Source of the DNA: Watersipora subatra
Taxonomy: Eukaryota > Bryozoa > Gymnolaemata > Cheilostomatida > Watersiporidae
Direction of reading: 5' to 3'
DNA: 64,000 nucleotides
Assembly (NCBI RefSeq): GCF_963576615.1
Contig: NC_088714.1
Location: 29,880,558 to 29,944,557, forward strand
Within the stretch, counting starts at the first letter, position 1. Each line of letters begins with the position of its first letter. The notes under the pieces were generated by a model. The model searched no databases and had not been told where the DNA came from. It worked only from the letters and a program-made list of their open reading frames with translations. Made by a program: the position numbers and the translations under genes. Below, piece by piece: positions 1 to 64,000 of this stretch.

Positions 1-4
1 TAAC

Positions 5-50
5 ATTCAGCATGGTAAAATTTGAATGATCAAATTTTACTATGCTGAAT
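5..50. repeat. Inverted repeat (hairpin), 21-base arms
   Basis: Arms 5-25 and 30-50 pair with one G/A mismatch around a 4-base loop (ATGA). Copy 2 has it at 36859-36904, right at the restart of the unit. Confidence 0.85.
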
Positions 51-309
51 GGTTAATAAATCCCTGCTCAAGTTCCAGAGATATGATCAATACTAAAAAT
101 GTAATATCGAGAACGAATCTCATGTATGCAGTTATTGAAGAATATCTAATAATGTGTTTTAGACAAGTAAAAGTAATCCTAGTTGTTCTTTAAACTACAG
201 GTTAATATAAGATAATTATATTAGAATCTTTAAAATGTTGTTTGGTATAAATATACTAGATACAAATAACAATGTTGGAGCTTAAGTATTTCTATGAAAG
301 CTTTATTGA

Positions 310-440
310 GTACTGAGTGTTGAATATTGAGTATTGAATATTGATTATTGGCTATCGAATATTGACGATCAAATATTGACAATTGAATATTGACGATCGA
401 ATATTGATCATTGAATATTGACTATTGAATATTGAGCTGT
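310..440. repeat. Degenerate short tandem repeat (GAATATTGAxxATT)
   Basis: GAATATTGA recurs at about 14-base spacing with variable ACT/ACG/TCA fillers. Copy 2: about 37164-37294. Confidence 0.7.
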
Positions 441-698
441 CAGTAGCATTTTGAAAGCCATTGAGATAACATAAAAAGATATAGACAGTTTTTCTCAAAT
501 TTCGTCTGCAACTTATTGTACTGTATTATTTGAAATGAAATTTGAAAAATGTCAAGCTACCACCTCATTTGCACTACTTTTATTCCTTGTATACATCTAT
601 CTCATGAGAGATAGTGAACCCTTTCAATGTCATCTGATGAGAAATGGCACAAAGTTTTGAAATTATATAAAGGTGAGTAAATGGCAGTGAGTAATTCT

Positions 699-704
699 TT
701 TATT
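699..704 (-). terminator. AATAAA polyadenylation signal downstream of gene B
   Basis: AATAAA on the minus strand about 120 bases past the gene B stop, a plausible 3' UTR position. Copy 2 has it at 37553-37558. Confidence 0.45.
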
Positions 705-1029
705 TGAACATATTAGAATCTTTTATCTGCATTAATGTTTACCATATACTAATACTGCAAACAATCAGTTCCATATTTCACGCAGTTCTGCTGCCAAGTA
801 TAACATTTACATCAGAATGAGTCATTATTGTCGCCGAATAAATTGGACTTTCACAGACGGTGGTGTCAGAAGGAGTGACATCGGGTACTTTCTAACATCC
901 CGACTTGGTAGTTCACCAGCCAACTTTACCGTAAAGTTCTGTAGAATATTGGCCAAAAAGAGAAATATCCTTGACTTAGCCAACACTTCACCTGGACAAC
1001 CTCTTCTTCCAGATCCGAAACCTAAGAAG

Positions 1030-1675
1030 CTGCAAGCAGTAATAGCAAGGGTGATAACTGTAAGTAGTAATAGCAGGGGTGATAACTGCAAGCAATAATA
1101 GCAGTGGTGATAACTGCAAGTAGTAATAGCAGTGGTGATAACTGCAAGTAGTAATAGCAGGGGTGATAACTGCAAGTAGTAATAGCAGGGGTGATAACTG
1201 CAAGCAGTAATAGCAGTGGTGATAACTGCAAGTAGTAATAGCAGTAGTGATAACTGCAAGTAGTAATAGCAGGGGTGATAACTGCAAGCAGTAATAGCAG
1301 TGGTGATAACTGCAAGCAGTATTAGCAGGGGTGATAACTGCAAGCAGTATTAGCAGGGGTGATAACTGTAAGCAATAATAGCAAGGGGGATAAGCGCAAG
1401 TAGTAATAGCAGGGGTGATAACTGCAAGCAGTAATAGCAGGGGTGATAACTGCAAGTAGTAATAGCAGGGGTGATAACTGCAAGCAGTAATAGCAGGGGG
1501 GATGACTGCAAGCAGTAATAGCAGGGGGGATGACTGCAAGCAGTAATAGCAGGGGTGATGACTGCAAACAGTAATAGCAGGGATGATAACTGCAAGCAGT
1601 AATAGCAGGGGTGATAACTGCAAGCAGTAATAGCAGTGGTGATAACTGCAAACAGTAATAGCAGGGATGATAACA
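1030..1675. repeat. 28-bp minisatellite, about 23 units, abutting exon B10
   Basis: Unit (plus strand) GCAAGTAGTAATAGCAGGGG plus TGATAACT. It starts at the base next to the exon B10 acceptor. On the minus strand each unit ends ...CTGCTTGCAG, the same sequence as the true acceptor. Long minus-strand reading frames here are repeat-driven, not genes. Confidence 0.95.
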
Positions 1676-1799
1676 CTCGACTTTCTGTCTGCTGGTGACG
1701 GGCATCTTAAGTTTAATTTTACTGCTATCAGCGGTGGTGTAATGAAAATTCTTTGTATGATCTTTAACCTTATTCTATTTATGGGAGGAGTTCATTGAT

Positions 1800-1970
1800 G
1801 TTTGCACACTTACCAAAGGCTGTACACTTACCGTAGTCCGAACACTTACTGTAATCTATACAGTTACTGTAGTTTGTACTCTCACTCTGGTGTACACATT
1901 CACCGAGATGTGTGCAAATACACTGTAGAGTATAGACTCACTGTCATGTACGCTGTGTACCATAGGCTGG
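1800..1970. repeat. Degenerate ~15-bp repeat (ACACTTACYGTAGTC type)
   Basis: About ten imperfect units in gene B intron 9. Copy 2 at about 38654-38824. Confidence 0.6.
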
Positions 1971-2257
1971 AGTTTTATTCTTAAATTCATTAAAATTCAG
2001 GATTGAAAAATCTGCTTCGTGATGGATTTGATCAAGAAACTGCCCATTCCTCAGGCGATAATCTTACCAACTAAGCTACATTATTTATTAGACCTTATGA
2101 GCCGCTATATCGGCTAGAACATGCACTGCACTAAAACTTGCTTTCTTGGCTCTTATTAGCGAGTTTAGCTATATGGATAGTTCCGCATCCAAATTAGTCA
2201 TTGGCAATGTGCCAGGCTAATGGCAAGTGACTACATTACCTGTCACTGTTTATAAAC

Positions 2258-2297
2258 TGATTTTTATACCCGGGCATTGCTGGGCATTCGGCTAGTA
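2258..2297. mobile_element. Terminal fragment of a dispersed element
   Basis: CCCGGGCATTGCTGGGCATT followed by CGGCTAGT resembles the repeated end sequence that seeds the 10-bp array at 22486. A short fragment; the class is uncertain. Confidence 0.35.
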
Positions 2298-2984
2298 ACA
2301 TAAAATAGGGAGATGGACAAATGTAGGTAAGCACTAACTTTTGTCGCAAAGGATGGTCGCGATCCACCAATTGCCCAGTTGCATCTAGAAACCTGTCAGG
2401 TTTGACAGTAAAAGGATCCTCATAAGCCTCAGGATTGTGAGCTATATAGTAGGAATTCATCAGAACAAAAGTATTGGCTGGAACCTGTACGAACATATAT
2501 CATCACACTTAGAGGTTAGCCAACACATAAGAACAGACACGGACATGTGGAAACCTCAAGTTTAACAATGTAAAATGGAAAATTTTAGCAGAAATTTCAA
2601 AAAAGCTCTAGCAGTAGAAGTAAGATTATACAATAGACATCAGTGCTGGTGCAAATGTTAAACTTCAGTTATTTCTCTAGCTCAAGTACGTCTTAGAGGT
2701 TTTACAACCATGAAACTAATATATTTGATCACTTCGGCTAAAATATAACCTGTGATATCTACCAGTAATGGCATAAGCCATATATTGAAGTAACCTTATA
2801 TCCTGACACTGCGGTATCTCGTATGGTCATGTGTGGAACCAGAAATGGCAGCTGAGTCAAGTATCTGAAGTGTTCAAGAACATATGACTCCACCTGTGGC
2901 AGCTTGTCTCTGAAAGTTCAAATGGCAGTGCTTGCTGTCATTATGAATGCGGTATTAATATTCACAATGTTTTGGTAAGCTACA

Positions 2985-3200
2985 TGCAGCTCTATGCCTA
3001 TGTATCACTGTTTCTATATAACTTTGTGTTTATGTAGCTTTGGGTCTATGTTGCTCCGTGTCTATGCAGTTCTGCGTCAATGCTGCTCTGCGTCTATGCA
3101 GCTCTGCGTCTATGCAGCTCTGCGTCTACGCAGTTCTGTGTCTATGCAGCTCTGCGTCTGCCTGCTGTATATAGCTCTGCATTTATATAGCTCTGCCTTT
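2985..3200. repeat. 16-bp tandem repeat (GCAGCTCTGCGTCTAT), imperfect
   Basis: About a dozen units in gene B intron 7, degenerating to both sides. Confidence 0.8.
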
Positions 3201-4477
3201 AAGCATTTCGGTGTCCGCCTAATCATAGAGTACTAACAATTTTTTCATTTTTCAAAATACCGATCAACTGTACATATTTTGGCCACGGGGGCCACTCAAA
3301 TTTTATAAAAATTATCATCATCATCTTACAAAAAAGATTTGGCAATTTTGTGAAAAACACCAAAAAACCAAAATATTCGTATTCATATTTTACTGTATCG
3401 TTTTTATAAACAGAAGAATAAATTGTATTAAGCTGATTTTCTGTCAAAAAGGAAAGACAATTCTCTTTTGTCAAGCAAAGGAAGAACTGTTCCTGGATAA
3501 AGCACATTGCCTTGGATTGACATCCAAAGACAACACTGTGACATTCAGCTAACACATAAAAGTTAAAAATGCTCTAAAGTTGACCCTTACTTGTCCTTGA
3601 GAGTGATTGTGTGAGTTAGTTCAAACTGGCTGTCAATCTCCGCTTGTAACCTTTTTTGTAATGTTGGATCATGCAGAAGGTCCAAAAAAATTTGACGTAA
3701 GCTCCGCCCACTCGTCTCCAAACCTGAGAATTAGAAGTTTAACACTGATGAAAATGCCCTGTTATAAAATAATGCATTTTATGGACATGGAGCTGTTGCA
3801 TATCATTGAATGAAAGGGTTTGCTGACAGTCTATTCTGTTTACAATATCTGAATGACAGCGTTAATCTAGCACTATTAATCTGTCACCTCTGAGCCATGG
3901 TAATGAAAACAGCAATATGACAGCGACTTACTCTCACAGTGTAGGGCACGAATCTTATAACTTCAAAAAGTGGGATGAATAAAAAAATTCTTTTGGCCTT
4001 TTATCCATGTTGCTCGCAGAGGGAGCAATTACATGAGAGCTGTTAACAGAGATATTGTAATAAAAGAGGAGAAAACTCCTGATGAGATTACAGTGCTACG
4101 GTAACTGTAAGTGAATCTGTGACGTTTTTCTGTCTGTTGCTCACCAATTTTATTGTCTGTCAATGCTCGAAGAATCACTGCATTTGGACTGGAATGGGCA
4201 CAAAAATTTGTTTCGGTGTGTAGTGCATTTGGCCAGATACCATTAGTGATTTGACGATGGGGATTAAATCACCCTTAATTACCAACCCTGTGTGTTCAAT
4301 GCTTTTAATATTTCCGGTGTTTATCCTTTTGAACTAAAGTGATTAACTGCGGACGTTATAATTGATAAGCCACGTTGTTAACTGACATCTAGATATTGTT
4401 CTGCATGATTTTATTTTGCTGAACTATATGAATAGCTCTGCAATTATTTTTAAAGATGGCAAAAGGTATGTGTCAGT

Positions 4478-4663
4478 AATTTTTACTATAATAAGAGCCG
4501 TGTCTGTCTGTCCAAAGCCATGCTAAAAGCGTCAGGAAAAAAAGGGAATCAGAGACCAGATATTCAGTTTCTCCATCAAGCATGCCACCATCTGCGCCAC
4601 TTAACCACTTGTTGCCTTGCAGAGTAATTATGCACATACTTATTACACCTGATGATCTCTCAT
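4478..4663 (-). mobile_element. tRNA-derived SINE-like element
   Basis: Tail TACTATAATAAGAGCCGTGT and CTGTCTGTCC at the low end, head GAGAGATCATCAGGTGTAAT at the high end. The same head and tail recur in at least eight other places in the unit. Confidence 0.6.
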
Positions 4664-4989
4664 GGTGCACATGACTGACTACTAGTGCAACATATCATGT
4701 GAAATGTGAAGAAACACACATGAAACAGCACGTGAAATAGCACAAGAAATAGCATGTGAAATGTTATTTATCTTCACGGCTGATATTCTTCATACTTACT
4801 GCCAAGAAGTTATTGATACTGACTACTAGTTGGAAAAACTTTTAGCTAAGGTTGTTAGTATGTATTTGTGAAAAGTTATCCCTGCCTAAGGTTCTAGTCT
4901 TTAGAGGCAGAGAGCTGTTATTACCTACCTGCATAAGGTTATTACCTAAAGCTTGTATCGTGAACCTGTTGAGACAAATTACTACCTAC

Positions 4990-5128
4990 CAGCAGAAACA
5001 AAGTTGAGCATTAGACCCTTCATATCCTCATCATCTAGCAAAGGTTTACCATCTTTATCTAGCTCTTCTTGTTGGATTTCAATAAATTAGTCCAAACATC
5101 CTCGCTTGTTGCTGGCATCAAATGAAGC
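4990..5128 (-). pseudogene. Gene B exon 6 with premature TAA
   Basis: Reads ASFDASNKRGCLD, then TAA (5087-5089), then FIEIQQEELDKDGKP, in the same frame as gene A exon 6 (CLD-Tyr-FIEIQ). Exon length 139, acceptor TTGTAG and donor GTAGGT are all intact, so the stop is a single nonsense change and not a misread frame. Confidence 0.88.
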
Positions 5129-5141
5129 CTACAAGTTGATG

Positions 5142-5858
5142 TATCGATAAAGTATTGGTAAAGTATTAATAAATTGTTGATAAAGTGTTGATAAAGTGTT
5201 GATAAAGTGTTTATAAAGTGTTGATAAAGGATTGATGAAGTGTTGATGAAGTGTTGATGAAGTGTTGATGAAGTGTTGATGAAGTGTTGATGAAGTGTTG
5301 ATGAAGTGTTGATGAAGAGTTGATGAAGTGTTGATGAAGTGTTGATGAAGTGTTGATGAAGTGTTGATGAAGTGTTGATGAAGTGTTGATGAAGTGTTGA
5401 TGAAGTGTTGATGAAGTGTTGATGAAGAGTTGATGAAGTGTTGATGAAGTGTTGATGAAGTGTTGATGAAGTGTTGATGAAGTGTTGATGAAGTGTTGAT
5501 GAAGTGTTGATGAAGTGTTGATAAAGTATTGATGAAGTGTTGATGAGGTGTTGATGAAGTGTTGATAAAGTGTTGATGAAGTGTTGATGAAGTGTTGATG
5601 AAGTGTTGATGAAGTGTTGATGAAGTGTTGATGAAGTGTTGATGAAGTGTTGATGAAGTGTTGATGAAGTGTTGATGAAGTGTTGATGAAGTGTTGATGA
5701 AGTGTTGATGAAGTGTTGATGAAGTGTTGATAAAGTGTTGATGAAGTGTTGATGAAGTGTTGATGAAGTGTTGATGAAGTGTTGATGAAGTGTTGATGAA
5801 GTGTTGATAAAGTATTGATAAAGTATTGATAAAGTATTGATAAAGTATTGATAAAGGG
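5142..5858. repeat. 11-bp minisatellite (GATGAAGTGTT), about 65 units
   Basis: In gene B intron 5, ending 14 bases from the exon B6 acceptor. GATAAAGTATT variants occupy both edges. A 256-residue minus-strand frame (INTSSTLHQHF repeats) is a repeat product. Confidence 0.95.
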
Positions 5859-6757
5859 CTAATAACTAGCCATATACAGATGACCATTAAATTTAACAAT
5901 TTATATGGAGATACATGAACACTTCCTCAAACCATGAAAACAGTTAAAAACACTCAGACGCCATTTATTATAATGCAAGACTAATTTCATTCTGTGAGAA
6001 AAAATATTTTTACTGTTAAATTTAAGAGTTTTTTTTATCAAATGTACCTTTTAAGAACAGTTTCTTGCCTATGCTCTTTTATGTAAACAAGCCAGTCAAT
6101 ATGCCAATTTTTTTCTGATTGGTCAAAGGAAGTAATTTATATACATTTTTGGAGCTTTTGAGTTTGTATATTTGTAAGTTTGTCTCTTATGGAAATTGAG
6201 ACACTTGGAGTTAGAGAGCTGAAAATTGGCATGTAAGATCCTTGAGAGAATAGGAACTTAACAGAGAGGTTTGCTAAGGTCAATGGCAGCCTTGAAGGCC
6301 GATTACTAGAGCCAAAGTAGTGAATTAGCTTGAAAATTACTAAAATCAATGTGCTTCTATTTTAAGTTTGGATTTCAATAAATTTTCTAATCAATTTCTG
6401 CAAGCATGTTTTATTATGTGCAAAAATAGAACAACAGTTCAAAATAATGTGCAATATTTCATATATGAGCGCGAGTTACGCAAGTTTGACCTTGTAATAT
6501 ACAAAGGTTATAAAAGAGTTAAGTACCTGTTTTTATCATAGTTATAAACGAACCTTCAGGATACACAAGCTGTCCGTTTTCAAAAGCATTATTAATGTCA
6601 ATGTCAAACCACATAAAAGGTCCAATTTACTTTCATTACAAAAAAGAAAGTTTTATTCAATGTTTATTTACTTCCATTAAAACATAAGTTTTTGAATTAA
6701 AGAAAGTCAAAAAAGATTTTATGAAAGTAAATTTGCTCCCTTAATAAATCCAGAAAC

Positions 6758-7241
6758 ATGATGCCTTTAAAGAAGAAAACCACATCTACAAAATTATATG
6801 AAACACACAGAAAGAAGTAGCAGAGAAAATTTAAATCACCAGAACATAAACTTAAGAGATTTGAAGAACATAAAGAAAGAACTATAAGACTTCAAGATTT
6901 TGACAGAAGGAAACTCTAGAACAGACAGTGGCAAAAGTTAAAGAACAAAGTTTACAAGTTTTTCCAAATAAAACTGCAGAAGAAATTGCCAACAAGTACA
7001 TGTATAATACTGAAAGAATTCGAATTGCACTACAGTGTCGAGTGAAACAGTTCAAAAAAGTGCTTTATAATGCTGCTTAAGCATGTCAAAATAAATCTAT
7101 GGAAGAGTTTCTTGAAAGTCTTGAACAACAAAGAATAAGAGCAACTCAACAGAGACAGAAAGAAACTGTTAATAAAACATCAAAATAATTGCAGAATAAG
7201 AAAAACAAGAAAGTCAATAATTTCTGGTCAAATGACTAAAG
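6758..7241 (+). pseudogene. Decayed coding relic, unknown protein
   Basis: Plus-strand reading, antisense inside gene B intron 5: MMPLKKKTTSTKLYETHRKK, then a stop, a frameshift near 6915, then ETLEQTVAKVKEQSL, AEEIANKYMYNTERIRIALQ and SMEEFLESLEQQRIRATQQR with further stops. It looks like a charged, helical protein fragment, broken at least four times. The family is not recognised; a mobile-element or retrocopy source is possible. Codons are strongly A-rich, so part of the signal may be composition. Confidence 0.35.
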
Positions 7242-7336
7242 GATACAAACGCTTGAAGCACAAAGGAAAAAAATACACTTGAACGATATGGTGAAATTAT
7301 TGCATGGCATTTGTGTTATTTATGTTGGGTGTTCAA

Positions 7337-7580
7337 AGGTTGGAGGTCTACAACACCTGCATGTATGGGCTTTGAAAGGTTGGAGGTCTACAACACCTGC
7401 ATGTATGGGCTTTGAAAGGTTGGAGGTCTACAACACCTGCATGTATGGGCTTTGAAAGGTTGGAGGTCTACAACACCTGCATGTATGGGCTTTGAAAGGT
7501 TGGAGGTCTACAACACCTGCATGTATGGGCTTTGAAAGGTTGGAGGTCTACAACACCTGCATGTATGGGCTTTGAAATGT
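7337..7580. repeat. 40-bp minisatellite, 6 identical units
   Basis: Unit GGTTGGAGGTCTACAACACC plus TGCATGTATGGGCTTTGAAA. No difference seen among units or between the two segment copies. Confidence 0.95.
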
Positions 7581-7955
7581 TAAAACCAAAAACATTGCTC
7601 ACCATAAAGTTCTTTAAAAGCATCTCATCATGAGAAACGAATAATCGGTGATTATAAAACCAATTTTCTCGCTATTACAAATCTTTTTATTCAAAGTTGA
7701 AGTATAATGGTTAATGTATTAGCTTACATCTACTTCATATACATGTACATGCATATACATCTTCCTTTTTCACAAATTGTGAATATCAAAAACATACCAT
7801 CTCTTCTTACATATTTACTTTGCACTGCCATTATGACAGAATGTGTAGCATTATTAAAATTAACACTCTGTTTTACAAAATGAATATGGTTAAAAGAAAT
7901 TAAGACAGTTATTGAGTTTATTCCTAGGAAACACTGGGTACTCTTGCTAAGACAT

Positions 7956-7976
7956 AATAATAATAATAATAATAAA
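7956..7976. repeat. (TAA)n microsatellite
   Basis: Copy 2 (44810-44826) is two trinucleotides longer, shifting the offset by 6. Confidence 0.9.
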
Positions 7977-8019
7977 ATAAAACAACTTCTGCAGCTCATG
8001 TGTTTGTATGCTGAAAGAC

Positions 8020-8166
8020 CTTTTGACCTTTTGACCTTTTGTGCTAAGGTTATTGAGATTTTTTGGTTGATAAGTCAGAGATTCCATTAAAAATGTCGGA
8101 ATTTTTGTCGATGATTAAAGAGAATAGCCAACAGCCACCGAGTTCAGAGTTCAGAGTTCAGAGCTC
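8020..8166. repeat. Short direct repeats (ACCTTTTG; AGTTCAG)
   Basis: GACCTTTT x3 near 8026-8041 and GAGTTCA x4 near 8141-8166. Confidence 0.7.
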
Positions 8167-9804
8167 ACCTATTCATGTAAAAAGGCTAGTTGACTTGCTC
8201 CAAAATGATTTGGTTTGCTGAAGCCAGAAGGAATTGAACTTCAAATAATTCACGCTCTAATAAGTTGAACCAATGAAAGCTTCATATTTTCATTACATTC
8301 TGTAACTTTTGATACTTGACTATTGTTTATTTACTCTCAGATCAAAATAAAGTTTAGCTGTGTTAAAGTTAACATACATGTAGTTACATGTAACTTTATA
8401 TTTAACATAAATTTAACACAAAGTTTAACAGTTTAACATAGTTTAAAAGTGTAATTAAATCTATATATAAGTAAATGCTTTATGCTTAATGGCTCAGTGA
8501 AACATTTATATTTATAAACATTCACCTTTGCTTCATCTATTCGTGTTTTTATGAAGTCATTAACGACTCCCCTCGCTACTTCCAGCTTTCTATGGGTGTC
8601 TCGAAACAAGAACTTGAAATGAAAGAGAAACGGGAGGGCATCCAGGACCGCCCCACTCGACAAGGGAACTGTTCCTTCGACTAGTCTCTCACTCATTTCA
8701 TTAATCTTTTGGCAGACTTCATCGTCGTAGGAATATTTCTCACCAAACATCTGAATTAAAATTTCACTTTACAGCTGGCTAAAGGATCGTGAAAAGCAAA
8801 ATGAGGTTCTCAAACAGAAAGTAGCAATGAGCAGACAACTCAAGGTTCTTTGTTAATCATGACAAACAAAAGGTTGAGGAATTCAACTAAAGTAAAAAAC
8901 TGTGAACACAAATAATAAAAGTTATACCATAATTTTTTTATTTGAGTTAGTAACATCAACAAAATGATGTTTTTTTGTTACATGTTAAAGGAAAAAAGGA
9001 AAGACAGAAATCAGGAATTATTGAGTGAGTTGAACAAACGTGCTTTAAGGTTGGTAATCTATTGTAGATTAAAGTATGGTAGATGAGTTGGGATAGTGAA
9101 TTGAAGGTTGTAGTAACACAAATTTCATGAGCTGAAACATACGATGGTGGATACAATATGTTGGATATAATATGTTGGTGCCACAGAGTAATAAAAGATG
9201 TTTATCATAACGAAATGATATACATGTATGTATACCATATATGATATGAAATAAAGAAGTTCAACTTCTGAGCACCTTGAAAATAATTTTAATTTTAAAC
9301 TTTTGACTATGTTTAGATATTGCTTTGCTTTCTTTTCTGAAAACAACTTGTTTTCCAATACTCACCTGGTTCCACTTTTAGTAAGGTTGGTGCATTTAGG
9401 GCTAATAATCAAAGATTAACATTTTGATACCATCTCAACTCTGACCTCGCACTGTATTGATACATGGTACCGGAGAACAGTCCTTACTCACCATAGAAGC
9501 AATAACACAACACACATAGCCTGTGCTCAGCTCTGCCGCATCTATCACATGACTATCTTTTTGGTGAATGTCATCAATCATATCTTTTATTGTTTCTTGC
9601 ATGACATATTCCAGATCTGCAATGCCTGGTCCATAGGCTTTCATAGCCTTAAAAAATATGCGCCGCAGCATAATTTGCTCATCATTCAGTGTCTTCAACA
9701 TAAAGCATATCATGACAAGAAATTTTGATTTACACTAATCCAGACATCTGCTAATTGTAAGAGTGCAAATCGGATTTCTGTCAGTTATTTGGGAGTTGTC
9801 TTCC

Positions 9805-10000
9805 TAATCTTTACTATGATAAAACCCATATCTGCCTGTCTGTTTGTTTGAAGCCAGGGTTTGAAATTAGAATAAAATATTGCTTCATCTGAAATTTAAG
9901 CTCGCGACACTCGGCTTTGCAGACCACAACTCTAACTGCACTAATCCAATTAAGAACAGGCAATTGTACATATAGTAATTCTCTGTGCTTAATCGGCACA
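9805..10000 (-). mobile_element. tRNA-derived SINE-like element
   Basis: Minus-strand TAGTGCAGTTAGAGTTGTGG resembles an A box region, followed by a degenerate B box. Tail TTTACTATGATAAAACCC. Its head runs into the 22-bp array at 10008. Confidence 0.55.
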
Positions 10001-10007
10001 CTAGACG

Positions 10008-10175
10008 ATGTCTCATGACACACTTGACGTTGTCTCATGACGCACTTGACGATGTCTCATGAAACACTAAACGATGTCTCATGACACACTAAATGATGTC
10101 TCATGACATACTTGACGATGTCTCATGACACACTTGACGATGTCTCATGGCACGCTTGACGATGTCTCATGGTAC
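10008..10175. repeat. 22-bp tandem repeat (GATGTCTCATGACACACTTGAC), 8 units
   Basis: The unit resembles the SINE head with flank (GATGATCTCTCATGG...CACTAGAC). Confidence 0.85.
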
Positions 10176-10258
10176 ACCCGGACTGTAATGGTACTAGTAC
10201 ATATATAACCATGAAGTTACCTCTGCTACTCTTATAGTTAGGCAAAGAGCGATAGTAT

Positions 10259-10315
10259 TTAAAGTACCTGAGAAATCAAACTTGCTCTTTGCAGACCAGA
10301 TTTTCGACCCAAAGA
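10259..10315 (-). pseudogene. Possible relic of gene B exon 3
   Basis: Minus-strand reading NSLGRKSGLQRASLISQ is followed by a GTACTT donor and lies about 570 bases upstream of exon B4, close to the 513-base spacing of exons 3 and 4 in gene A. It shares LGR and a loose R-x-S-x-I pattern with gene A exon 3, but has no AG acceptor at the expected place and is shorter. Chance similarity is a real alternative. Confidence 0.25.
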
Positions 10316-10794
10316 GTTTTGCAAGTAATGATGACAAAATGACTTGGAATGATTAGGGTAAGTTGATAGTTCAGAGTACACCAAAACAACAAAATGTCCA
10401 TGAGAGTTTTGAGATAGCTGTTGAGGAAGAAATACAGTGTTAAAGATTAACCTTTTTAATTTTATTCTTTCTAAAAGCAATGGTTGACTATGAAGATTAA
10501 TTCATCACTGAGTATTTGTGGACTTTCTAGCAAAATTATAGAAAATACAATACGAATATTTCGTAGCTCTAAATACAATGGGTTTGATATTCACTCAATA
10601 TTTTACGATTATTTCATTAGCGATGTGATTTTAGTATTTCTAATAACTTAAAATTTTTTGTGCACAAAAACTGTTGAGAAATATCTAGAGAAGTGTTAAT
10701 ATTCTCAATGCTTCACCTTAGTTTAATTAACTTTCTCTTGGGAAAGTAAACCAACTTAATCCAGCAATGATTGATGATAATAATGATAACATTC

Positions 10795-12127: not shown

Positions 12128-12415
12128 ATCTTATAGCTTACTAGTTGACCCAGTTATAGTTTGTCTTGTAGTTTAATAGATGACCCAGTTACTGAATGTC
12201 TTATAGTTTACTAGATGACCCAGTTACTGAATGTCTTATAGTTTACTAGATGACCCAGTTATTGAATGTCTTATAGTTTACTAGATGACCCAGTTATTGA
12301 ATGTCTTATAGTTTACTAGATGACCTAGTTATTGAATGTCTTATAGTTTACTAGATGACCTAGTTATTGAATGTCTTATAGTTTACTAGAGGACTCAGTT
12401 ATCGAATGGCTTTTA
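12128..12415. repeat. 35-bp minisatellite, about 8 units
   Basis: Unit GTTTACTAGATGACCCAGTT plus ATTGAATGTCTTATA. Confidence 0.92.
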
Positions 12416-51278: not shown

Positions 51279-54200
51279 TCACTGGCGTCTAACGAATTTA
51301 ACATGCGTGGAAGGCGGTGATAGGAGAATAGACATCGGGTACTTTCTCACATCGCGTTCTGGCAGCTTCCCGATGAGCTCCACATTGTATTTTTGTAGAA
51401 TGTTAGCCAAAAAGAGGAATATTCTTGACCTGGCTAACAATTCACCTGGACACGCTCTTCTTCCTGATCCAAATCCCAGAAAACTGTAAAATCCGAAAAA
51501 ACAACAGCTATTATGTTTCTAGGTTTTATGAAACAGTCTAGTTACATAAAAACCATTTGTTTTATGTAACCAGAGGCTCAGACCAGAAGTTTCGCCAAAG
51601 GCTTTGAGACATATATACATTGGAGATATACTTTGTGCATGGGCAGTTAGTGTGCCAAGTCTATATAAAAATTTTATCATGTTTTTCAAGCATTTGTTAT
51701 CATTTCTACTGTACTCAAACCTTTGCGCATAATTCTTCAAAAAACATACTGTATCTAAGATGTTATAAACATGATAAAAGAATCTTTTACTTTGTTTGGT
51801 TTAACAGATTAATTTATAAGAGGTAATGTCAACCTGATCTAGTCTCATGATATTCATTCCAGTTTAGTGTGATTTAATCTATTCTAGTTTTATCTATTGA
51901 AGTCTACACGTGATAATTTAGACTGTTTTAGTCAGGGTTGTTCTAGTTTACTCCCTAATTGTATCTGCTGTAGTCTGGTTATCCTAGTTTACTCCCTAAT
52001 TGTATCTACTGTAGTCTGGTTATTCTAGTTTACTCCCTAATTGTATCTACTGTAGTCTGGTTATTCTAGTTTACTCCCTAATTGTATCTGCTGTAGTCTG
52101 GTTATCCTAGTTTACTCCCTAATTGTATCTACTGTGGTCTGGTTATTCTAGTTTACTCCCTAATTTTATCTACTGTAGTCTGGTTATTCTAGTTTACTCC
52201 CTAATTGTATCTGCTGTAGTCTGGTTATCCTAGTTTACTCCCTAATTGTATCTACTGTGGTCTGGTTATTCTAGTTTACTCCCTAATTTTATCTACTGTA
52301 GTCTGGTTATTCTAGTTCACTCCCTAATTGTATCTAATGTAGTCTGGTTATATTAGTTTACTTCTTAATTGTTTCAAATGTATTCTAGTACGATTTGTTT
52401 CACTTTCAGAAACATTTTATTACAGCTTTCTTCTAGTTGGACAAATACAAGATGCCTTAAAATTGTATTTAACCCCAAAGTACGGATTACTAAGACCCAA
52501 AACTAGCTTTAACATCACAGTATTTGCTCATGTATTAGCGCAGGTTATGAGCATGTGAAGCCCATTAGGGCAGTTCAGCTACTGTACATGTACAAAAAAA
52601 AATATGTGCAAAAAATGTCTTGTAGTAATTTACAACTATGAGTAAAAAATATGTAATCTACATTCATCAATTAATTTAGTCTTAGTATCCTAGTACGGTT
52701 TGGAACGAAAGTTGGTTGTGGAAAGCAAATTCTTCGTTTGATCTTTGAACTCTTACATTATCATTTTTTATATTTTGTGTTAAAAGTTCTTGGAATCAGG
52801 GCATTGCATTAGCGAGTAACTTGCCAACTTAATGTTGAAATTTAATCACTGCCATCTGGATTTCACTATTAAAAAGTTGTATGATAATTTATACACTATA
52901 AATAGCTTTTGTTTTAAAACGGTTTCCATTGTTGACCGACAAGCTATCTGTTTGAGACAAGCACTGACAGCCATACATATACAACCAGTATTCTCTCTGC
53001 CTCAGTCATTACAGTCATCCCACACATGTAATACAGAAGTCAACTAACAATAATAATAATGCTGATAGTTACTTTTTGAAAATGACATATGTAAAGAACT
53101 ATTATACAGTTTTACTTGCAAATTATTTAGGAATGGGATCAAGAAAGTTAGGTCAGAAGATACCTATAATACGTAAAGTTTTTCAAACCCTACAAACATC
53201 AGCACAAAATAGACACTGAGCTTACATACAACCCGGCTTGTACGAGATAGATAATTCATTTTTGTAAGTTGAAAATAATGACTTATTGCGTGCATTTTAT
53301 GTACATGTAATTACAACTTCAGCTCAAACACATATTATGATAAACACCGACCCCCTTCACAGTCGATTGCACACAGGCTAGTTCTGACATCTTGTCAAAA
53401 AGTTAAAAGGGGATGTTTTAGAGAATTTTTCTTGATTTGCTGTCGATGCCTTATTGACTCAACACTGAATGACAACTGCAGGTTGAAGTAACTGCCATAT
53501 GAGCAAAATCTATGATGATAATCTCAGAGTATATTGCCTCTTCTTTCTGACTTACTTTTGTCGCAATGGATGGTCTCGATCTACACACTTTCCTTCTTTA
53601 TCTAGAAATCTATCAGGCTTTAACACAAAGGGATCTTCATAGATATCGGGATTGTGGGCTGTATGGAAGGCGTTTATGAGCACTACAGTATTCGCTGGAA
53701 TCTAAAATATGACTGGCTGATGCAGAGTAGAGACAATTCTCACGTTACTAGTTGAAGTATTAACTAAAACGATGAAAGAGTTTTTTGATAGGATAGTCTT
53801 GGGTAGAGTAACTGCTACTAAATAACCAGTACATATGATAGACAGAATATCGGTTCACAGAATAAACAGGCAGGTCGTGAAAAGTTATAATAGCAAACTT
53901 TACTATCATTAGAGGGGTGTTCGTTTGAAAGCCCAAAGCCAGGGTTAAATGTTAGGAAAAAAGACTGCTTGCAACAGGATTCAAACATCCAACTCAGCTT
54001 TGTAGATCAATGCTCTAACAACTTCACTAATCCAGAATCGTTATGAATTATAACACCTGACAATACACATTAGACTGCCAGGGTGCTAGTATGAATAACA
54101 AAACAAACAAACAGTTAAAAGACAAAAATGGTGTCAACCTTGACATTCTTATCTTCAACTAACTATGAGTTACAACCGCTAGCTGATTGTAACTCTCATG

Positions 54201-57200
54201 CTTGCGAAAATGCTGTTGCTGATTACTGGCAGCAATCAGATTACATTAGCTAGTACAGTTAGTACAGTGTACTGTAGATAAATGTTATCTACTGGCAATC
54301 TTGCCATCCTGAACAGCTGATAGTAAAGGCTGGAAATGATGTCACTTTGAACGTATCTTCCCAACCAATATGAGTCAGTGTGGGAGAGTAGGTCTACACT
54401 CCCGGATCTAGTAACCCACAGCCACAGCCTCATGATAAAACACCATCACGATTTTTCAAACGAAACCAAGCAGAGTATCTTTATATTAGCAACCATTAGC
54501 CATCTTTGACAAATTGGTATTAATCTATCTACAGTGTAAACCTCTCATCTTCTAATCTTTTTTGACACCGTCGAACTAAAGAAATAATATACACGTAAGT
54601 GGTTATTGAAGCGCTTCATAAAAGTTTTCTTCACGCGAGTCTTGAACTCGGACACTCCGCTCTATAAACTAACACTCTACCAAATGTCTAAATCTACCAC
54701 ATATGGAGTTGTTAGAATAATCTTTCCTATAATAAAAACAGTGTTCCGTAACATTGAAACATTCTAGTATGGGGGAAGATCTCTAAGAGCAGACTGCCAG
54801 AGCTCAACACGTTACCTATAAACTTACCGTTACTGTTACCGTTACTGTTACCGTTACTGTTACCGTTACTGTTACCGTTACTGTTACCGTTACTGTTACC
54901 GTTACTGTTACCGTTACTGTTACCGTTACTGTTACCGTTACTGTTACCGTTACTTCAATGTTACCGTTACCTACGGCTTATTTAATGTAAACAAAGCATG
55001 CTTACTCCAAACAATGCCGGGCTCAATTGGCAAACTTTGATGTGTAATTTCCTGTATAAATTTGCAACGATCTGAAACCCAATTAGAAACCCAAAATTTG
55101 CCTTCGTGACGCTTGCCTCCAATGAATGTGTATATAGATTGTTGTTGTAAAAACAGTGTAACAATTTATGTTAAAAATAAAACAAATCTTGCAGCTGTAA
55201 GTCGAGCTTACAGCTAGTACTTTATAAACGCCTGATCTCTTTCTCTCCTTAGTTGAGACATTGTGTATTGCCCCTACAAACCTTATAGCCAATAAGTTCT
55301 GTGTCTCTGAGAGTCATGTGGGGCAGAAGTACAGGTGCTTGAGACAGATATCTGAACTGTTCTAGCAGATAGGCTTCCATTTGAGGCAGCTTCTCTCTAC
55401 AGCAGTCCGAGCGTAATGAACTGTTTAGTGCAAGTTTTTTGTTTGAGCTAGCTATTACGAAAGTCCAAATAAATGGTTTGTTTTTTATTTTAGAAACGAA
55501 AAAAACAATTTGCTATATGGCGATGCCACTTGAAAAGCACGCACTGTTCATCCATTGTGTGACTAATCTTACATAAAACTTAAAAATTCTTTTAGCTGTG
55601 TTTTATAAAAAAACAATTTTTTTTGAAATTCTCAGAATTTTTTTTATTTCAGATGTTTTATTTTATATTTTGCTTTAGCATATTTTTTTGGACACAAAAC
55701 TAGTTTGTCAAAATTAAGAACAACTAGCAAACATATTTATGAGCAATTAGTCACTACAATTTATCTTCCCAGATAATATTTGTTTCAAAAAAGCTTACCA
55801 ACTATCAGTTGATTTTTTTGACAAGCTTAATTTTATGTTGATTTATTGACTGTAGCAAGACTCTCAAATTTTTATGAAAACACTGAATTTAGTACCCATT
55901 TTGCTGTTATTAGTATACCTATAACTAAGCAAAATCTAGTATGATTTTTCATTTTTAATAAATTGCACAGTTTTTTGATGGTTTACGTTTAAATTTGGAA
56001 TTTTTTGTACAAATTTGATTGGTAAAAGAGCCTTATTTTGGCAGATTTTATAAAAATGTTTTTTTTTGCTAATTAGCTCTACTAATAAAAAAGAGTTTGA
56101 ACTGTTCGAGAATGTTAAACAGTTGATCCAGAGTTTAAGCTCTTGATATGTATTAAGTGTCTTTAGTTCTACACTTGAATTTTGCAACATAACCTCAACT
56201 CTGCTAATAAGGGTTGAATCGGATTTTCGATAATATTGCAAAATTAGGCTGCAGTCATTTGTGGCATCTAAAAAGGCAACCATAAAAAAGACACAACTGT
56301 AAACCATCAATGCCTTGTGTCCAAGTAGCAGTATAATATTTAAGTTACTTCCAGTTTGAAGGTTTAAAGGAATCAAAATTCTTTAACTTTTATTTAGCCG
56401 CAGGCAGGGTTTAAATGTGCACTACACATGCAAAAAATCGAACACTCTTTTTACGTACGGAGAAATATGGAAGAGACTTTACATGAAACATTTAGAATTA
56501 TGATAACAGATTACTGACAAGACACTGATATACTGCTTGATAGAATCTTTGAAACAAAAACCAAGACTGCTGACCATTACTAGCCACAATCTTTACTATA
56601 ATAAGAGCCGCGTCTGTCCGTGTGTCCGCAACTACGCTAAGAGAATTAGGAAAAGAGATTCTACACCATGGGAATCAAACGCTGACATTCAGATTATAAG
56701 TCAAGAGCGCTATCATCTGCACCATTCAACCACCTTTCCACATCTGAGAATAGTTGTGCACGTAGATATTACATATGACAGCGTCATGGGACTTCCAGCG
56801 CACTAATGTAGTTCATCATAAAATACATTAGAAATGCTGACTGAATGATGAGCTGCAGATGGGCCAGACAACTTTATCCATTGCTAAATTTTCTGCCAAC
56901 ATTTAACACCCGATTCGTAAGTCAGCGCTGCCATAAGACCCACAAAAAGTTATATTGTTATTGTTGAGGAGGAATATGGGTGTTTCCAGCTCATTCACAT
57001 GATAACAACCCTAAGAGTACCAGTGCGAAAGCAGAACTTCCAGAAGTTTCTGTCACCAGTGACTAGCCATTGTCACGTTCGTAATAAAACATGTCCTTAC
57101 TTGTCTTTGAGACATATGATGTGGGTCGGATTCAGCTGGGTGTCAAGCTCATCCTGGAGCCTCTTTTGTAGACCTGGATCATGTAGGAGGTCTAGGAATA

Positions 57201-60200
57201 TCTGAGCGAGACTTCTTCTGCTCGTTTCCAACCCTATTGACACAGACAGAGAAATGGTGTTTTAAATAGCTTTAAAAATAGCCTGATGTGGTGTTGGCAT
57301 GGGAACAGTTTGTAACTATTTTGGGTGGTCAAGGTCTGGTTTGAGGATTATCAACATAATTGAAGTTAAGGCATGTCATGAGTCAACCATAGTCTAGACT
57401 TCAAGGATGTTTCGTTTTGTTGTCTTTTTCATTTATTTGTTTGTTATATACCTGTAAAAATTTTTTAACAAATGAGGCTTATTTCAGTAGATTTGCTATA
57501 TACCCGTGTATATCATAGCAATTTATAAAATTGTTTACTCTAGCTTAAGTAGCTGTATGGCATCCCAGTCAAAAGACCACCCCAGTAGACGCTATTATAA
57601 CTTCCCAATATATAAATTCCAATTGATGTACAAAGTTTACGCTTCGAATTACGTTAGAAATTTCATCTATATATATAAGTCCCAGCGTTTGTTGGTTGTA
57701 TGTTGTTGGTGTGTCCAATTGTATCGATCACGTTTTAGGAATGAAAAAATTTCTTTTCATTGTAGTTCAACTCATAACCTCCAAGTCTGCAGACAGGCGT
57801 GCTAAACCACCTGTCCGAGTGGCTACAATGCTATACGATAAAATAATTTTCCACATCATCCTTATTACACCTGCCGATCTTCAATGCCGATTCGTTACAA
57901 AGGTCACTTTTCATCTAGCACGCTTTAAGATCATGATGGTGTGAAAGATCATGATGCAATCTTTTTTTAATGCTGTTCTAAATTATAATAACGGCTCTTA
58001 TTATAGTGAAGATTTAGACTAGATCATGTTACTCAAATTCATTAGGTACAGAAACATAGCCAATTCAAAATAACTTTTCTATGCAAAAACCTTTTATTAC
58101 CTGTACAACGCTGGACATCCAACTAGCATAACATAAAAGTTCACGTTGGTACAAGGGCTCGAATTCATTTTGAATAATGAAAATCTCATAGTTAGCCTTA
58201 CAAATATATGTTTTTCTTTTTGCGCACTTCGGAGAGAAAATGACGTATAGGGAGTTTTCTATTACAGAAAACTAGTAGTCTAGTTTTCTGTAATAGAAAA
58301 CTGAAAGTCTAAAAGTCATGTTTAATACGCTATGAGAGATTGTCAGGTGTGCGGATAAAGTGCCCATAACAAGTAGCTGCACAATTATTCACAAATGCGT
58401 ATTAGAGTGTCTGAATGTTGTGGTTTCAAAATCAGCGTGATGCAATCTTTTCTTCTACCACTAATCGTGGCTTCGGACAGAAAGTAATGATTATAGCTAT
58501 AACTATAGCAATAACTATAGCAATAACTATAGCAATAACTATAGCAATAACTATAGCAATAAATATAGCAATAACTATAGCAATAACTATAGCAATAACT
58601 ATAGCAATAACTATAGCAATAACTATAGCAATAACTATAGCAATACCTATAGCAATAACTATAGCAATAACTATAGCAATAACTATAGCAATAACTATAG
58701 CAATAACTATAGCAATACTATAGCAATAACTATAGAAATAACTATAGCAAAAACAAAGATTTTCTAATAAACTTGAATGCAATTCATATATCATAAAAGG
58801 TAGAAGATAGTAACATCTACCTGCTCTGATGAAATCTAGTAGTAGTCCTTTGATGCCTTCATCGTCTAGCTGTGGTTTACCATCTTTATCCATCTCCGCC
58901 TTCTGTATTTCAATAAAGTAGTCTAGACATCCTCTCTTGTTGTTAGCATCATAAGAAGCCTAAAGAACATGTTAGGCTAAGACAGTTTTTAGTTGCTCAA
59001 ACTTTACTAAAATAATTGATAATATCTATATCAATCCCACTTTGTCACTGGGTGTCTGTCTGTCTGTTAGTTCGCAGAAATTCTATGCGTTTTCATTAAT
59101 TTTAGTCAGTTCCATCCACACTTCACACGCCATGCCCTCCGTGCCTTTCACCATGTCACCAGAATATTTCATTTCCAAAATCCTCCTGGTTTATGAAAAC
59201 CAGCCTTTTAAACACGGATTAGCAATTCAAGAATGCATTGTTGCATGCATGAAGGACAATTGCTTTTGATAAAAACGTATGGATTGTTGTTGGGAAAGCA
59301 GTGAAGCATTTTGTTTTGAAGATCTACACATGGGATGCAGGCTATCTGATTGAAAAAAAATGCCGGGCAACACCGAGCAACACCGGGCAACATCGGGCAA
59401 CACCGAGCAACACCGAGCAACACCGGTCAACACCGAACCACACCGGGCAACACCAGGCAACACCGAGCAACACCAGGCAACACCGAGCAACACCGAGCAA
59501 TACCGAGCAACACCGGTCAACACCGAGCAACACCGGTCAACACCGGGCAACACCGAACAACACTGAGCAACACCGAGCAACACCGAGCAACACCGGGCAA
59601 CACCTAGCAACACCGGTCAACACCAAACGACACCGGGCAACACCGGGCAACACCGGGCAACACCGAGCAACACCGGGCAACACCGGGCAACACCGTGCAA
59701 CACCGGGTTTACTGCTAATCGTTAGTAATCATTTTTCAAACTTTTACCCAAAATGTTAAGAAAATTTTACTAATGCCTTGACTACAAAATTTTCTTAACA
59801 ATTTTAGCACCATCAACCTGCTACTCGACAACAAAGCTTAATATCTAATTATTGAGCAGGTTTGTTTACGAGTGACTACTTAGCATTATAGTTCATATGT
59901 TTCTATTCTCAAGCAGCAGATATTCACGACGTGATAGTTTTATTTTGTATTTACCAAAAACTGCACTCAACAATTGTACTGCTCATTCTTTTAATCTTTT
60001 GTCAAAAAAAAGAAGATGTATACCTAAGCTTAGTGGCTTCAAGTTTTGAGACTACTAAGTCTAGGCATACATCTTATCTTTTTTGCCCTTGTATATCCTT
60101 TTGTTTTTGCATTTATGACACTAAATGTAGACACCTCTTTATTAATGGATTTATCTTTTAGGTGGTGCTATATTTTTTGCATAAAAATGATTATGGACTG

Positions 60201-60823
60201 CCCAATAAAAAAATATATGTATTTACCACCCATCTTGCTCTGTTACTATTAAAATATAGGCCCTATTAATGTTTGTTGCTGCTTTTCTCAAGCTCACTCA
60301 GCAAAACAAATAAAACCATTTATAATGTCAAAACCTTTTTGGAAACGTTCTTACAGGAGATGAAGAGTAACATTTTGTAAAAAGAGATTTTTGTTAAAAC
60401 TTTTAAATTTGTTCCATTTTTCACACGAGTTTTAGACAAATTACTTTTGAGATCTAAAGAAATTGAGCTAAAAAAGTGTGAATCCATGCCTCCTAGCTTG
60501 CAGATTTTAATACAACCACAGAGGAAGAAGCTTCAGCTATAGCAGAATTGGTTTAAAATATTCAAAATGATGGTTTTTTGATTAGTTTAGAATTATACCT
60601 TTGCCTGGTCCAGACGAGACTTGGTGAACTCGTTGACAAGTTTCATCGCATCCTCAATCTTGCGATGAGTATCAGCAAATAGGAACTTGAAGTTAAACAA
60701 AAAAGGAAAGGCATCCAGAATAGCTGCACTAGACATCGGATCACCTGCCTCAATCTGTCGTGTGTTCATTCGATGCATCTTCTTACAAACTTCATCATCA
60801 TAGGCGAATTTTTCGCCAAACAT
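51279..60823 (-). CDS. Cytochrome P450 gene A', exons 5-10 visible, 5' part outside window
   Basis: Second copy of gene A. Exons in order: 60599-60823, 58821-58959, 57101-57233, 55282-55396, 53556-53701, 51279-51483. I saw no exon differences from gene A, whereas introns 7-8 differ at a scatter of bases. Motifs AGLETS, EQFR, KPDRF and FGSGRRACPGE are all present. Exon 4 and the rest should lie beyond 64000, since copy 1 has exon 4 about 220 bases past the end of the 57-bp array. Confidence 0.9.
51942..52350. repeat. 41-bp minisatellite, copy 2
   Basis: Matches 15092-15500 with one T/C change near the end. Confidence 0.93.
54824..54954. repeat. 12-bp TTACCGTTACTG repeat, copy 2, two units longer
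   Basis: About 11 units against 9 in copy 1 (+24 bases). Confidence 0.95.
58492..58749. repeat. 12-bp ATAACTATAGCA repeat, copy 2
   Basis: Matches 21618-21875, including the single AATATA and ACCTATA variants. Confidence 0.95.
59360..59706. repeat. 10-bp CAACACCGRG repeat, copy 2
   Basis: Matches 22486-22832 in length and variant order. Confidence 0.95.
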
Positions 60824-60866
60824 CTGCAAGAAAAAGTGAAGCTCCTACAACGTCAATAATCTATTT

Positions 60867-61736
60867 TGAGAACGTTTAAAGGGATTTTACGTTAGACGAA
60901 CAGTAAAATACATGTAAATTGCTTAGTCTAAATTACCATCCCAACCCAATCCCTTTGGCCTTTCAAATTGGAAAAACTAAATATAACTTTTTAATTCAAT
61001 GACAGTAGAGTACCAGTAGTATTATTTGTTTGTATCGAAAACTTTTCTTTTCTTTCTTATCACTTGGTTTAGTGTTCATGATTACAATTGTTTCACGTTA
61101 AGTTTAGGGAAGTTCACACCTTCAATGTCAATTTAAATCAATTTGTTTCATTTTTCTTTTAGACAGAAAGGTCTATGGTAGAAATAACAAAACAATGTAG
61201 TACATGTATAAAATAAAGTAAAATGAAAATATGTATTTGCTATCGCAAGAGCAGTGTCTGTCTGTTCATTTTTCCCAAGTCAGGGTCTGAGGTTTAATAA
61301 ACGATTAATTTCAACGAGACTCCAATTAATGGCATTCAGGTTGTTAGATGAACAGTCTAACACATGTACAAATCAACCGCCTTTAAGTATTTCTGAATAC
61401 TTGTGCACCTACTTATTCCATTTGCGCTATTGACACACATGATGATCTCTCAAAGCGCTCTAGACTGTCTAGGCACTAGAAGATATAATAGAGATGCCTT
61501 CATACATACAGATATAGCTTTTTTCTCCCGAATGGGATACAAGAGAAAACTATGTTTTTAAGGTTAATTATAAGACTTTGGTTATTAAAATCGAGTTTGA
61601 GAACTTGCATTGACATGGCACATTGTGTTATACAATTTCTTATTTCTCGATATCAAAAGCTTTGCATAAATTTTTTGCGTCAACTTAAATTTACATTATG
61701 GGAGGTCTACGTTATGGGAGGGCCTACAGTATAACA
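60867..61736. mobile_element. Composite dispersed element X, copy 2
   Basis: Duplicate of 23993-24862, in intron 4 of A'. Confidence 0.65.
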
Positions 61737-62545
61737 TACAACTACAAAGTTTTAAGACCTATCAATCAACTTGAGGATTTTACGATGATCGCGAAACCTT
61801 TTTACTTGGAAAGTTAAACAACTTTTGGCGTCTTGAACAGTTTGGTAAAGCAATCCATTGCAAAGTTCCTGATAGTCATAAATCAAGTGTTGACACCTTG
61901 CCAATACAGGAGACAGAACTGACAATTTTATCTCAGCCACAAAAATGTGGCATTAAAAAAGGGACAATGCGATATTTTGGAGCTGTGCATCAACTGATGA
62001 TTAGTCTTTGTTGTGCAATCAACCATCAAATTACATTGATCTCTTCAATGTGTATCTGTTAGGTATATATAAACAATAATAAACTCTACAATGAGTAACT
62101 GTTAGGTTATATAAATAATAATTATTGTGCTATACATCAAATTTATCCCTTAATGATTAGAAGGACAAATGACCCTTGTGTGTCATCTGGTTTTGAGCAC
62201 AATTTAGACAGCTTAATATCGGTGACTTTTCATTATTAAATATAAAAATACAATTCATAGTTTATCAATAGTTTTAATCAAGAATTTTATATATTATTGC
62301 ATATTAATATAATATGTTTCTTATGAAATATTCTATTATGGATGTTATATTACATGTCAAGTTAATACATTTCTTTTTAATTGTTTTATTATGAATGTTA
62401 TACAATATTGCGTATTTTAATACTTGATTCAATGTTAAAAATGCAATTTAATAGTTTGTTTTTATTTTTAATTTTTAATGCAGTGATTTAGTAAGAGAAC
62501 TCTTTAACCCCAAATATTCTGGCTTTTCAAATATGTTATAAATAT

Positions 62546-63970
62546 GGGTAGTTGTCATTGCCCACCCAGCTTACTAAAACACAATTCAATCTGGGCAGGT
62601 TTGGGTAGTTGTCATTGCCCACCCAGCCTACTTAAACACAATTCAATCTGGGCAGGTTTGGGTAGTTGTCATTGCCCACCCAGCTTACTAGAACACACTT
62701 CAATCTGGGCAGGTTTGGGTAGTTGTCATTGCCCACCCAGCTTACTAAAACACAATTCAATCTGGGCAGGTTTGGGTAGTTGTCATTGCCCACCCAGCCT
62801 ACTAAAACACAATTCAATCTGGGCAGGTTTGGGTAGTTGTCATTGCCCACCCAGCTTACTAAAACACAATTCAATCTGGGCAGGTTTGGGTAGTTGTCAT
62901 TGCCCACCCAGCCTACTTAAACACAATTCAATCTGGGCAGGTTTGGGTAGTTGTCATTGCCCACCCAGCTTACTAGAACACACTTCAATCTGGGCAGGTT
63001 TGGGTAGTTGTCATTGCCCACCCAGCTTACTAAAACACAATTCAATCTGGGCAGGTTTGGGTAGTTGTCATTGCCCACCCAGCCTACTAAAACACAATTC
63101 AATCTGGGCAGGTTTGGGTAGTTGTCATTGCCCACCCAGCTTACTAAAACACAGTTCAATCTGGGCAGGTTTGGGTAGTTGTCATTGCCCACCCAGCTTA
63201 CTAAAACACAATTCAATCTGGGCAGGTTTGGGTAGTTGTCATTGCCCACCCAGCCTACTAAAACACAATTCAATCTGGGCAGGTTTGGGTAGTTGTCATT
63301 GCCCACCCAGCTTACTAAAACACAGTTCAATCTGGGCAGGTTTGGGTAGTTGTCATTGCCCACCCAGCTTACTAAAACACAGTTCAATCTGGGCAGGTTT
63401 GGGTAGTTGTCATTGCCCACCCAGCTTACTAAAACACAGTTCAATCTGGGCAGGTTTGGGTAGTTGTCATTGCCCACCCAGCTTACTAAAACACAGTTCA
63501 ATCTGGGCAGGTTTGGGTAGTTGTCATTGCCCACCCAGCTTACTAAAACACAATTCAATCTGGGCAGGTTTGGGTAGTTGTCATTGCCCACCCAGCTTAC
63601 TAAAACATAATTCAATCTGGGCAGGTTTGGGTAGTTGTCATTGCCCACCCAGCTTACTTAAACACAATTCAATCTGGGCAGGTTTGGGTAGTTGTCATTG
63701 CCCACCCAGCTTACTAAAACACAATTCAATCTGGGCAGGTTTGGGTAGTTGTCATTGCCCACCCAGCTTACTAAAACACAATTCAATCTGGGCAGGTTTG
63801 GGTAGTTGTCATTGCCCACCCAGCTTACTAAAACACAATTCAATCTGGGCAGGTTTGGGTAGTTGTCATTGCCCACCCAGCTTACTAAAACACAATTCAA
63901 TCTGGGCAGGTTTGGGTAGTTGTCATTGCCCACCCAGCCTACTAGAACATAATTCAATCTGGGCAGGTTT
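62546..63970. repeat. 57-bp minisatellite, copy 2, 25 units (1425 bp)
   Basis: Units 1-10 match copy 1 units 1-10, and units 21-25 match copy 1 units 11-15. Ten extra units lie between. Five of them (11, 14-17) carry an ACAGTT variant absent from copy 1; unit 19 has ACATAATT and unit 20 CTTACTTAAA. Confidence 0.97.
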
Positions 63971-64000
63971 TCTAGTCTTATTACCATAACTCGCGCTATT

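Follow-up and report, generated by a model that had tools for sequence, protein, structure and literature searches.

A probable unequal crossover between cytochrome P450 genes at a 37-kb tandem duplication in the bryozoan Watersipora subatra

Introduction

Does a near-identical tandem repeat of about 37 kb that carries cytochrome P450 (P450) genes reflect genuine local amplification, or were two haplotypes placed in series by the assembler? The question is raised by a stretch of 64,000 bases on chromosome 7 (C7) of Watersipora subatra (NC_088714.1, positions 29,880,558–29,944,557), hereafter the window, whose own coordinates are used below unless C7 is given. The original prediction, which described the repeat as a two-P450 unit, left both explanations standing. 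Our analysis favors genuine local amplification, with one intact P450 gene per unit and not two. With a probability of roughly 0.85, the 37-kb duplication arose when two pre-existing B-type P450 genes recently recombined by unequal (ectopic) crossing-over, as suggested by a switch of parentage within one of the resulting genes.

The window was analyzed together with 90 kb on its left and 110 kb on its right, giving a 264-kb stretch, and the genome assembly searched comprised 783,720,542 bases in 239 contigs. According to the assembly paper, it is a hifiasm primary assembly of high-fidelity (HiFi) reads, processed with purge_dups and Hi-C (PMC12902671).

Gene order and the hybrid gene B1

Across the 264-kb stretch, the P450 array reads from left to right B0, psiA1, B1, psiA2, B2, A3 and C, an order obtained by tblastn with nine B exons (rows with E < 0.05) and a separate query with exon 1. 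All P450 genes within the window lie on the minus strand. B0, B2 and C are intact, as is A3, which has ten exons and no stop; psiA1 and psiA2 are two copies of a truncated A-type pseudogene. The predicted proteins are of similar size (506 residues each for B0, B1 and B2, 505 for A3 and 507 for C), and the B1 protein shares 99.8% identity with B2, 98.2% with B0, 68% with A3 and 61% with C. B1 itself occupies 14,429–35,603 of the window, and exons 5–10 of B2 occupy 51,279–60,823 on the same strand, its exons 1–4 lying to the right of the window.

To map the parentage of B1, the three B genes were aligned together, informative sites were scored by their odd one out and the break was located by maximum chi-square. 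Up to position 30,008, B0 is the odd one at 603 of 629 sites, B2 at 17 and B1 at 9; the 26 sites on this side with B1 or B2 as the odd one are confined to 15,468–19,999. To the right of the switch, B2 is the odd one at 108 of 121 sites. With the 16 B1-odd sites excluded, the best break falls at 30,008–30,157, with a chi-square of 576.8 against a maximum of 22.4 in 2,000 shuffles. B1 is B2-like to the left of this bracket and B0-like to its right.

Features beside the break and in the coding sequence follow the same division. A 25-bp minisatellite in B1 (30,012–30,450) comprises 17.6 copies whose units and order are identical to those in B0, compared with 7.6 copies in B2, and the last informative base to the left of the array is B2-like. 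Across the 34 coding sites that differ between B0 and B2, B1 matches B0 at all five sites in codons 1–95 (codons 6, 30, 31, 73 and 95) and B2 at all 29 sites in codons 96–506 (spread over codons 152–498), and it differs from B2 by a single residue. B1 is a hybrid, with its upstream region and exons 1–2 derived from B0 and its exons 3–10 from B2. This switch of parentage is the product predicted by unequal crossing-over between B0 and an ancestral B2.

In the sequence of events that we propose, an older tandem duplication would have cut a gene of type A in intron 3, producing psiA, and the stop codon of psiA would have arisen before the recent event. B0 and the ancestral B2, about 37 kb apart, would then have recombined within the large intron that separates exon 2 from exon 3, in the 25-bp minisatellite or directly beside it and presumably by homologous recombination. 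The exchange would have converted B0-psiA-B2-A3-C into B0-psiA1-B1-psiA2-B2-A3-C, a net gain of one intact P450 gene (B1) and one extra pseudogene.

A different course of events would be a real 37-kb tandem duplication formed by a replication-based mechanism or by end-joining, with the hybrid pattern of B1 imposed by later gene conversion. The 6 of 121 right-side sites with reversed affinity, together with a 4-kb tract holding 26 differences between the copies, hint at some later exchange. However, a single switch, at one and the same phase in all three B genes, accounts for gene order, period and hybrid together, whereas later conversion would need to end exactly at the duplication boundary. 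We consider conversion after duplication very unlikely, and the unequal crossover remains the preferred explanation.

The recent copies and the haplotype question

The two recent copies, S1 and S2, extend beyond the window on both sides. S1 (C7 29,874,003–29,910,568; 36,566 bp) starts 6.55 kb to the left of the window, and its right part corresponds to window positions 1–30,011; S2 (C7 29,910,569–29,948,009; 37,441 bp) takes up window positions 30,012–64,000 with its left part and ends 3.45 kb to the right. In self-alignment, positions 1–26,526 match 36,855–63,400 at 99.68% identity (43 mismatches and 4 gap openings in 26,557 columns), and a base-by-base walk extends the match to the window end, pairing 26,556 with 64,000. 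Along this walk there are 33 isolated substitutions, together with 8 multi-base events of which the largest two alter the length of an array. The earlier description of a restart at base 36,855 is accordingly correct as a period. Taken as a duplication seam, the same position is wrong, since the recent junction lies at 30,008–30,157.

Between the complete copies there are 43 substitutions in 30,431 non-array bases, or 47 in 36,519 when arrays are included, and no exact run in their alignment is longer than 4,331 bp. In terms of 31-mers, 3.9–4.8% differ between S1 and S2, equivalent to a divergence of about 0.13–0.16%. The assembly itself provides a yardstick: in the assembly paper, k-mer completeness at k = 31 is given as 69.65% for the primary assembly, 61.25% for the alternate and 98.05% for both combined (PMC12902671). 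From these values we computed that 46–53% of 31-mers differ between the haplotypes, a divergence of about 2.0–2.4%, an estimate which assumes that the gaps in completeness represent allelic differences, which incomplete assemblies would make higher than the true figure, and around which local diversity varies. The divergence between S1 and S2 is roughly a tenth of that between the haplotypes; the pair does not resemble haplotypes, and haplotypes in series are therefore unlikely.

Further observations support amplification. Older duplicates of about 90–98% identity flank the recent copies on both sides, B1 is recombinant, and neither the window nor the whole 264-kb stretch contains a single undetermined base (N). 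When the genome was searched at the DNA level with positions 8,523–9,692, part of the psiA1 region, 40 of 1,925 candidates were scored. Three of them were full-length matches, at A3 (97%), psiA1 (100%) and psiA2 (100%), and the remaining 37 consisted of short pieces of repeats; no separate haplotig of the psiA stretch was seen among these 40.

False duplication would here mean that both haplotypes of a single psiA-B unit had been placed serially because the assembler wrongly joined an intron of B0 to the similar intron of B2. S1 and S2 resemble a false heterotype duplication in being near-identical, adjacent and on one scaffold, and of the 19 bins of 500 bases that span the 9.5 kb around the switch (27,000–36,500), 18 show B0 and B2 at least 98% alike. 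The assembly paper describes an incompletely phased hifiasm primary assembly in which 46 haplotypic duplications were corrected by hand, and it reports only 1.7% duplicated BUSCO genes (PMC12902671), a proportion that argues against the artefact. Half depth and gaps between the members of a pair are listed among the marks of false duplications in a study of such artefacts (PMC9516828), and the expected gap contrasts with the zero N in 264 kb. Unlike a false heterotype duplication, S1 and S2 are far closer than alleles and have a recombinant gene at their junction.

Read length bears on the same issue. The assembly paper gives 30.93 Gb in 5.33 M HiFi reads, a mean of about 5.8 kb, while its running text gives 13.30 Gb in 2.20 M reads (6.0 kb); the DNA had been sheared to 12–20 kb before sequencing (PMC12902671). 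On these figures the mean read exceeds the longest exact run shared by S1 and S2, a further point against false duplication. We regard serial placement of haplotypes as improbable, and the joins in the assembly are probably physically real.

Several observations nevertheless weigh against a single unequal crossover. The primary assembly is not fully phased, and reads of about 5.8 kb are far shorter than the 36.8-kb unit, so variants may have been shuffled between copies and alleles. A wrong join within the 27,000–36,500 region, where B0 and B2 are alike, is not impossible. The switch is not fully clean either: besides the 6 reversed sites, at which B0 is the odd one, 7 of the 121 right-side sites are private to B1. 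Finally, the divergent tract of about 4 kb at 16,071–19,999, which contains 26 of the 43 non-array substitutions, is left unexplained by one crossover. The clustering is pronounced, the densest 5.5 kb holding 27 S1/S2 substitutions where none of 5,000 random draws gave more than 21, and it may reflect allelic conversion or switching of the assembler between alleles.

C11 carries another very young tandem duplication with P450 matches, whether genuine or an artefact: 14,024,001–14,028,000 and 14,043,520–14,047,519 are 100% identical over 4,000 bases. The two segments lie 19,519 bp apart and are separated by no N.

The older seam and the pseudogene psiA

An older seam is present in both recent copies, at 11,179–11,191 in the first and at 48,029–48,041 in the second. 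The sequence to the left of 11,179 is homologous to the intron between exons 3 and 4 of A3 (91–92%, 91.4% for psiA1), and from 11,191 rightward the homology is with the sequence that flanks B0 on its left (94.8%). The seam joins A3-intron-like to B0-flank-like sequence, and therefore points to an older tandem duplication that cut gene A in intron 3.

Both seams lie at the edge of a minisatellite, the older one beside a 16-bp array (10,921–11,179 in the first copy) and the recent one beside the 25-bp array, a pair of coincidences that is not very improbable given that about 17% of aligned S1 columns fall within arrays. The idea that minisatellites in the large P450 introns of W. subatra act as recurrent exchange points, generating new combinations of P450 upstream region and body of which B1 would be the latest, is tentative and, in our judgment, doubtful.

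The other member of the unit does not conform to the earlier description of two P450 genes. psiA1 (825–9,692, minus strand) is an A-type P450 with exons 4–10 only and a TAA within exon 6 at 5,089–5,087, and psiA2 (37,679–46,542, minus strand) is the same truncated pseudogene with the TAA at 41,944–41,942. The two copies show no differences over 1,170 exon bases. With its incomplete exon set and premature stop in both copies, psiA is a dead gene, and B is the one intact gene of the unit. The stop is common to both copies and is therefore older than the recent event.

The missing exons 1–3 are attributed to the older seam, which cuts gene A in intron 3. We also considered whether these exons were present in a diverged form, and this was rejected: tblastn with B exons 2–3 was negative across 8,501–14,600, as were searches upstream of both pseudogenes with A3 exons 1–3 and B exon 1. 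At E <= 1, exons 1–3 of A3 had no match upstream of either pseudogene, and in the same search all three were recovered at A3.

Comparison of psiA1 with A3 reveals 20 differences in 1,170 exon bases, with a synonymous divergence (dS) of 0.056 and a ratio of nonsynonymous to synonymous divergence (dN/dS) of 0.10 over both lineages. When changes were polarized by B1 and C, replacement or stop changes made up 4 of 8 in the psiA lineage and 1 of 7 in the A3 lineage, the remaining 5 of 20 being unassigned. The psiA proportion, set against a neutral expectation of 0.73–0.78, yields P values of 0.08–0.15. The psiA exons show no clear sign of constraint and are compatible with neutrality despite the low pairwise dN/dS.

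A 28-bp minisatellite of 23 copies adjoins exon 10 of psiA at 1,030–1,674 and 37,884–38,528. On the minus strand its consensus unit ends in TGCTTGCAG, like the 3' splice site of psiA exon 10, and 12 exact copies of this 9-mer (TGCTTGCAG) occur within the first array.

Structure and putative function of the B genes

B1 is encoded on the minus strand by ten exons at 35,603–35,517, 35,324–35,126, 27,531–27,461, 26,947–26,747, 23,949–23,725, 22,085–21,947, 20,359–20,227, 18,522–18,408, 16,851–16,706 and 14,633–14,429, the last including the stop codon. The frame is open throughout and all nine introns have GT-AG boundaries. Conserved P450 motifs include the haem-binding FxxGxRxCxG, ExxR, PxRF and A/G-G-x-D/E-T-T/S, and the spliced B1 protein contains FGSGRRACPG, EQFR, PDRF and AGLETS. 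It matches PF00067 with 285.9 bits (E 7.5e-85) over profile positions 2–462 of 462.

The C-helix WxxxR, common in P450s and not universal, is absent from B1, which has HxxxK at the position aligned to WxxxR of CYP1B1. In this alignment the C-helix tryptophan is replaced by histidine in the B genes (exon 4 of B1, 26,747–26,947); by eye, it is glutamine or histidine in A3 and C. We also considered that a C-helix exon might be missing between exon 3 and exon 4 and rejected this, as the splice phases close without one and the region aligns to CYP1B1. Among the best 60 of 272 matches, the closest solved relatives of B1 are CYP1B1, 1A1, 1A2, 2C8 and 17A1. The CYP1, CYP2 and CYP17 families are members of clan 2, and B1 is assigned to this clan as a predicted CYP1/CYP2/CYP17-like P450, an assignment made by closest solved relatives and not by a tree. 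An imperfect inverted repeat of 0.4 kb (71.8%) lies in B1 intron 3 at 27,038–27,429 and is perhaps a small transposable element.

The function of the B genes is putative and follows from the P450 family only. Selection of the extra unit for a higher B-type detoxification capacity would be compatible with the unequal crossover. The B genes are intact, their coding differences are mostly silent (dN/dS = 0.12 between B0 and B1), and their closest solved relatives, within the same best 60 of 272 matches, are CYP1 and CYP2 enzymes, families with known drug-metabolizing members. Yet only one of the two genes in each unit is intact, and the few differences between the copies indicate a recent event that drift explains equally well. 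An adaptive origin appears unlikely on this balance, and any dosage effect would be a conjectural consequence of the gain.

Other features of the locus

To the right of gene C, at C7:30,010,700–30,052,000, the plus strand carries degenerate pieces of P450 exons, which are embedded in tangled tandem repeats of 79–98% identity; five of the six rows correspond to exon 10. Within the window, Tandem Repeats Finder returned 57 tandem-array rows, and a search for structured RNA and tRNA content gave 0 matches.

Comparison with known systems

Hybrid P450s formed by unequal crossing-over and modules that combine a P450 with a pseudogene are already known, and the W. subatra locus would be a new instance of both. 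CYP337B3 of Helicoverpa armigera is described as a hybrid P450 attributed to unequal crossing-over of two P450 genes, in which CYP337B1 supplied the intron together with some of the coding sequence and CYP337B2 much of the 5' end, and its product is shown to degrade fenvalerate (PMC6211633). B1 resembles CYP337B3 in being a hybrid that probably arose by unequal crossing-over between two P450 genes. In contrast to CYP337B3, its crossover lies inside an intron, its protein is one residue off that of B2, and a pseudogene was co-copied.

The human RCCX module contains CYP21A2 and CYP21A1P, and 30-kb deletions are reported to create hybrid genes there. Such hybrid genes arise through unequal crossover. 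The bryozoan unit is likewise a duplicated module pairing an intact P450 gene with a P450 pseudogene. The two differ in that other P450 families are involved and the human module holds other genes too; moreover, psiA is truncated by the older seam and belongs to gene type A, with 68% protein identity to the intact type B.

Implications

In the literature searched, judged by title and the start of the abstract, no relevant report on P450 arrays in bryozoans was found. The approach taken here is free of reads: older neighbors in the array serve as outgroups that locate the switch of parentage, and the k-mer figures for the haplotypes of the assembly itself give the scale for the divergence of the copies. 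The approach addresses the choice between amplification and serial haplotypes as far as sequence alone allows. Counting units at this locus would overstate the gain in P450 genes twofold, and B1 would provide an example, from a bryozoan, of a very young hybrid P450.

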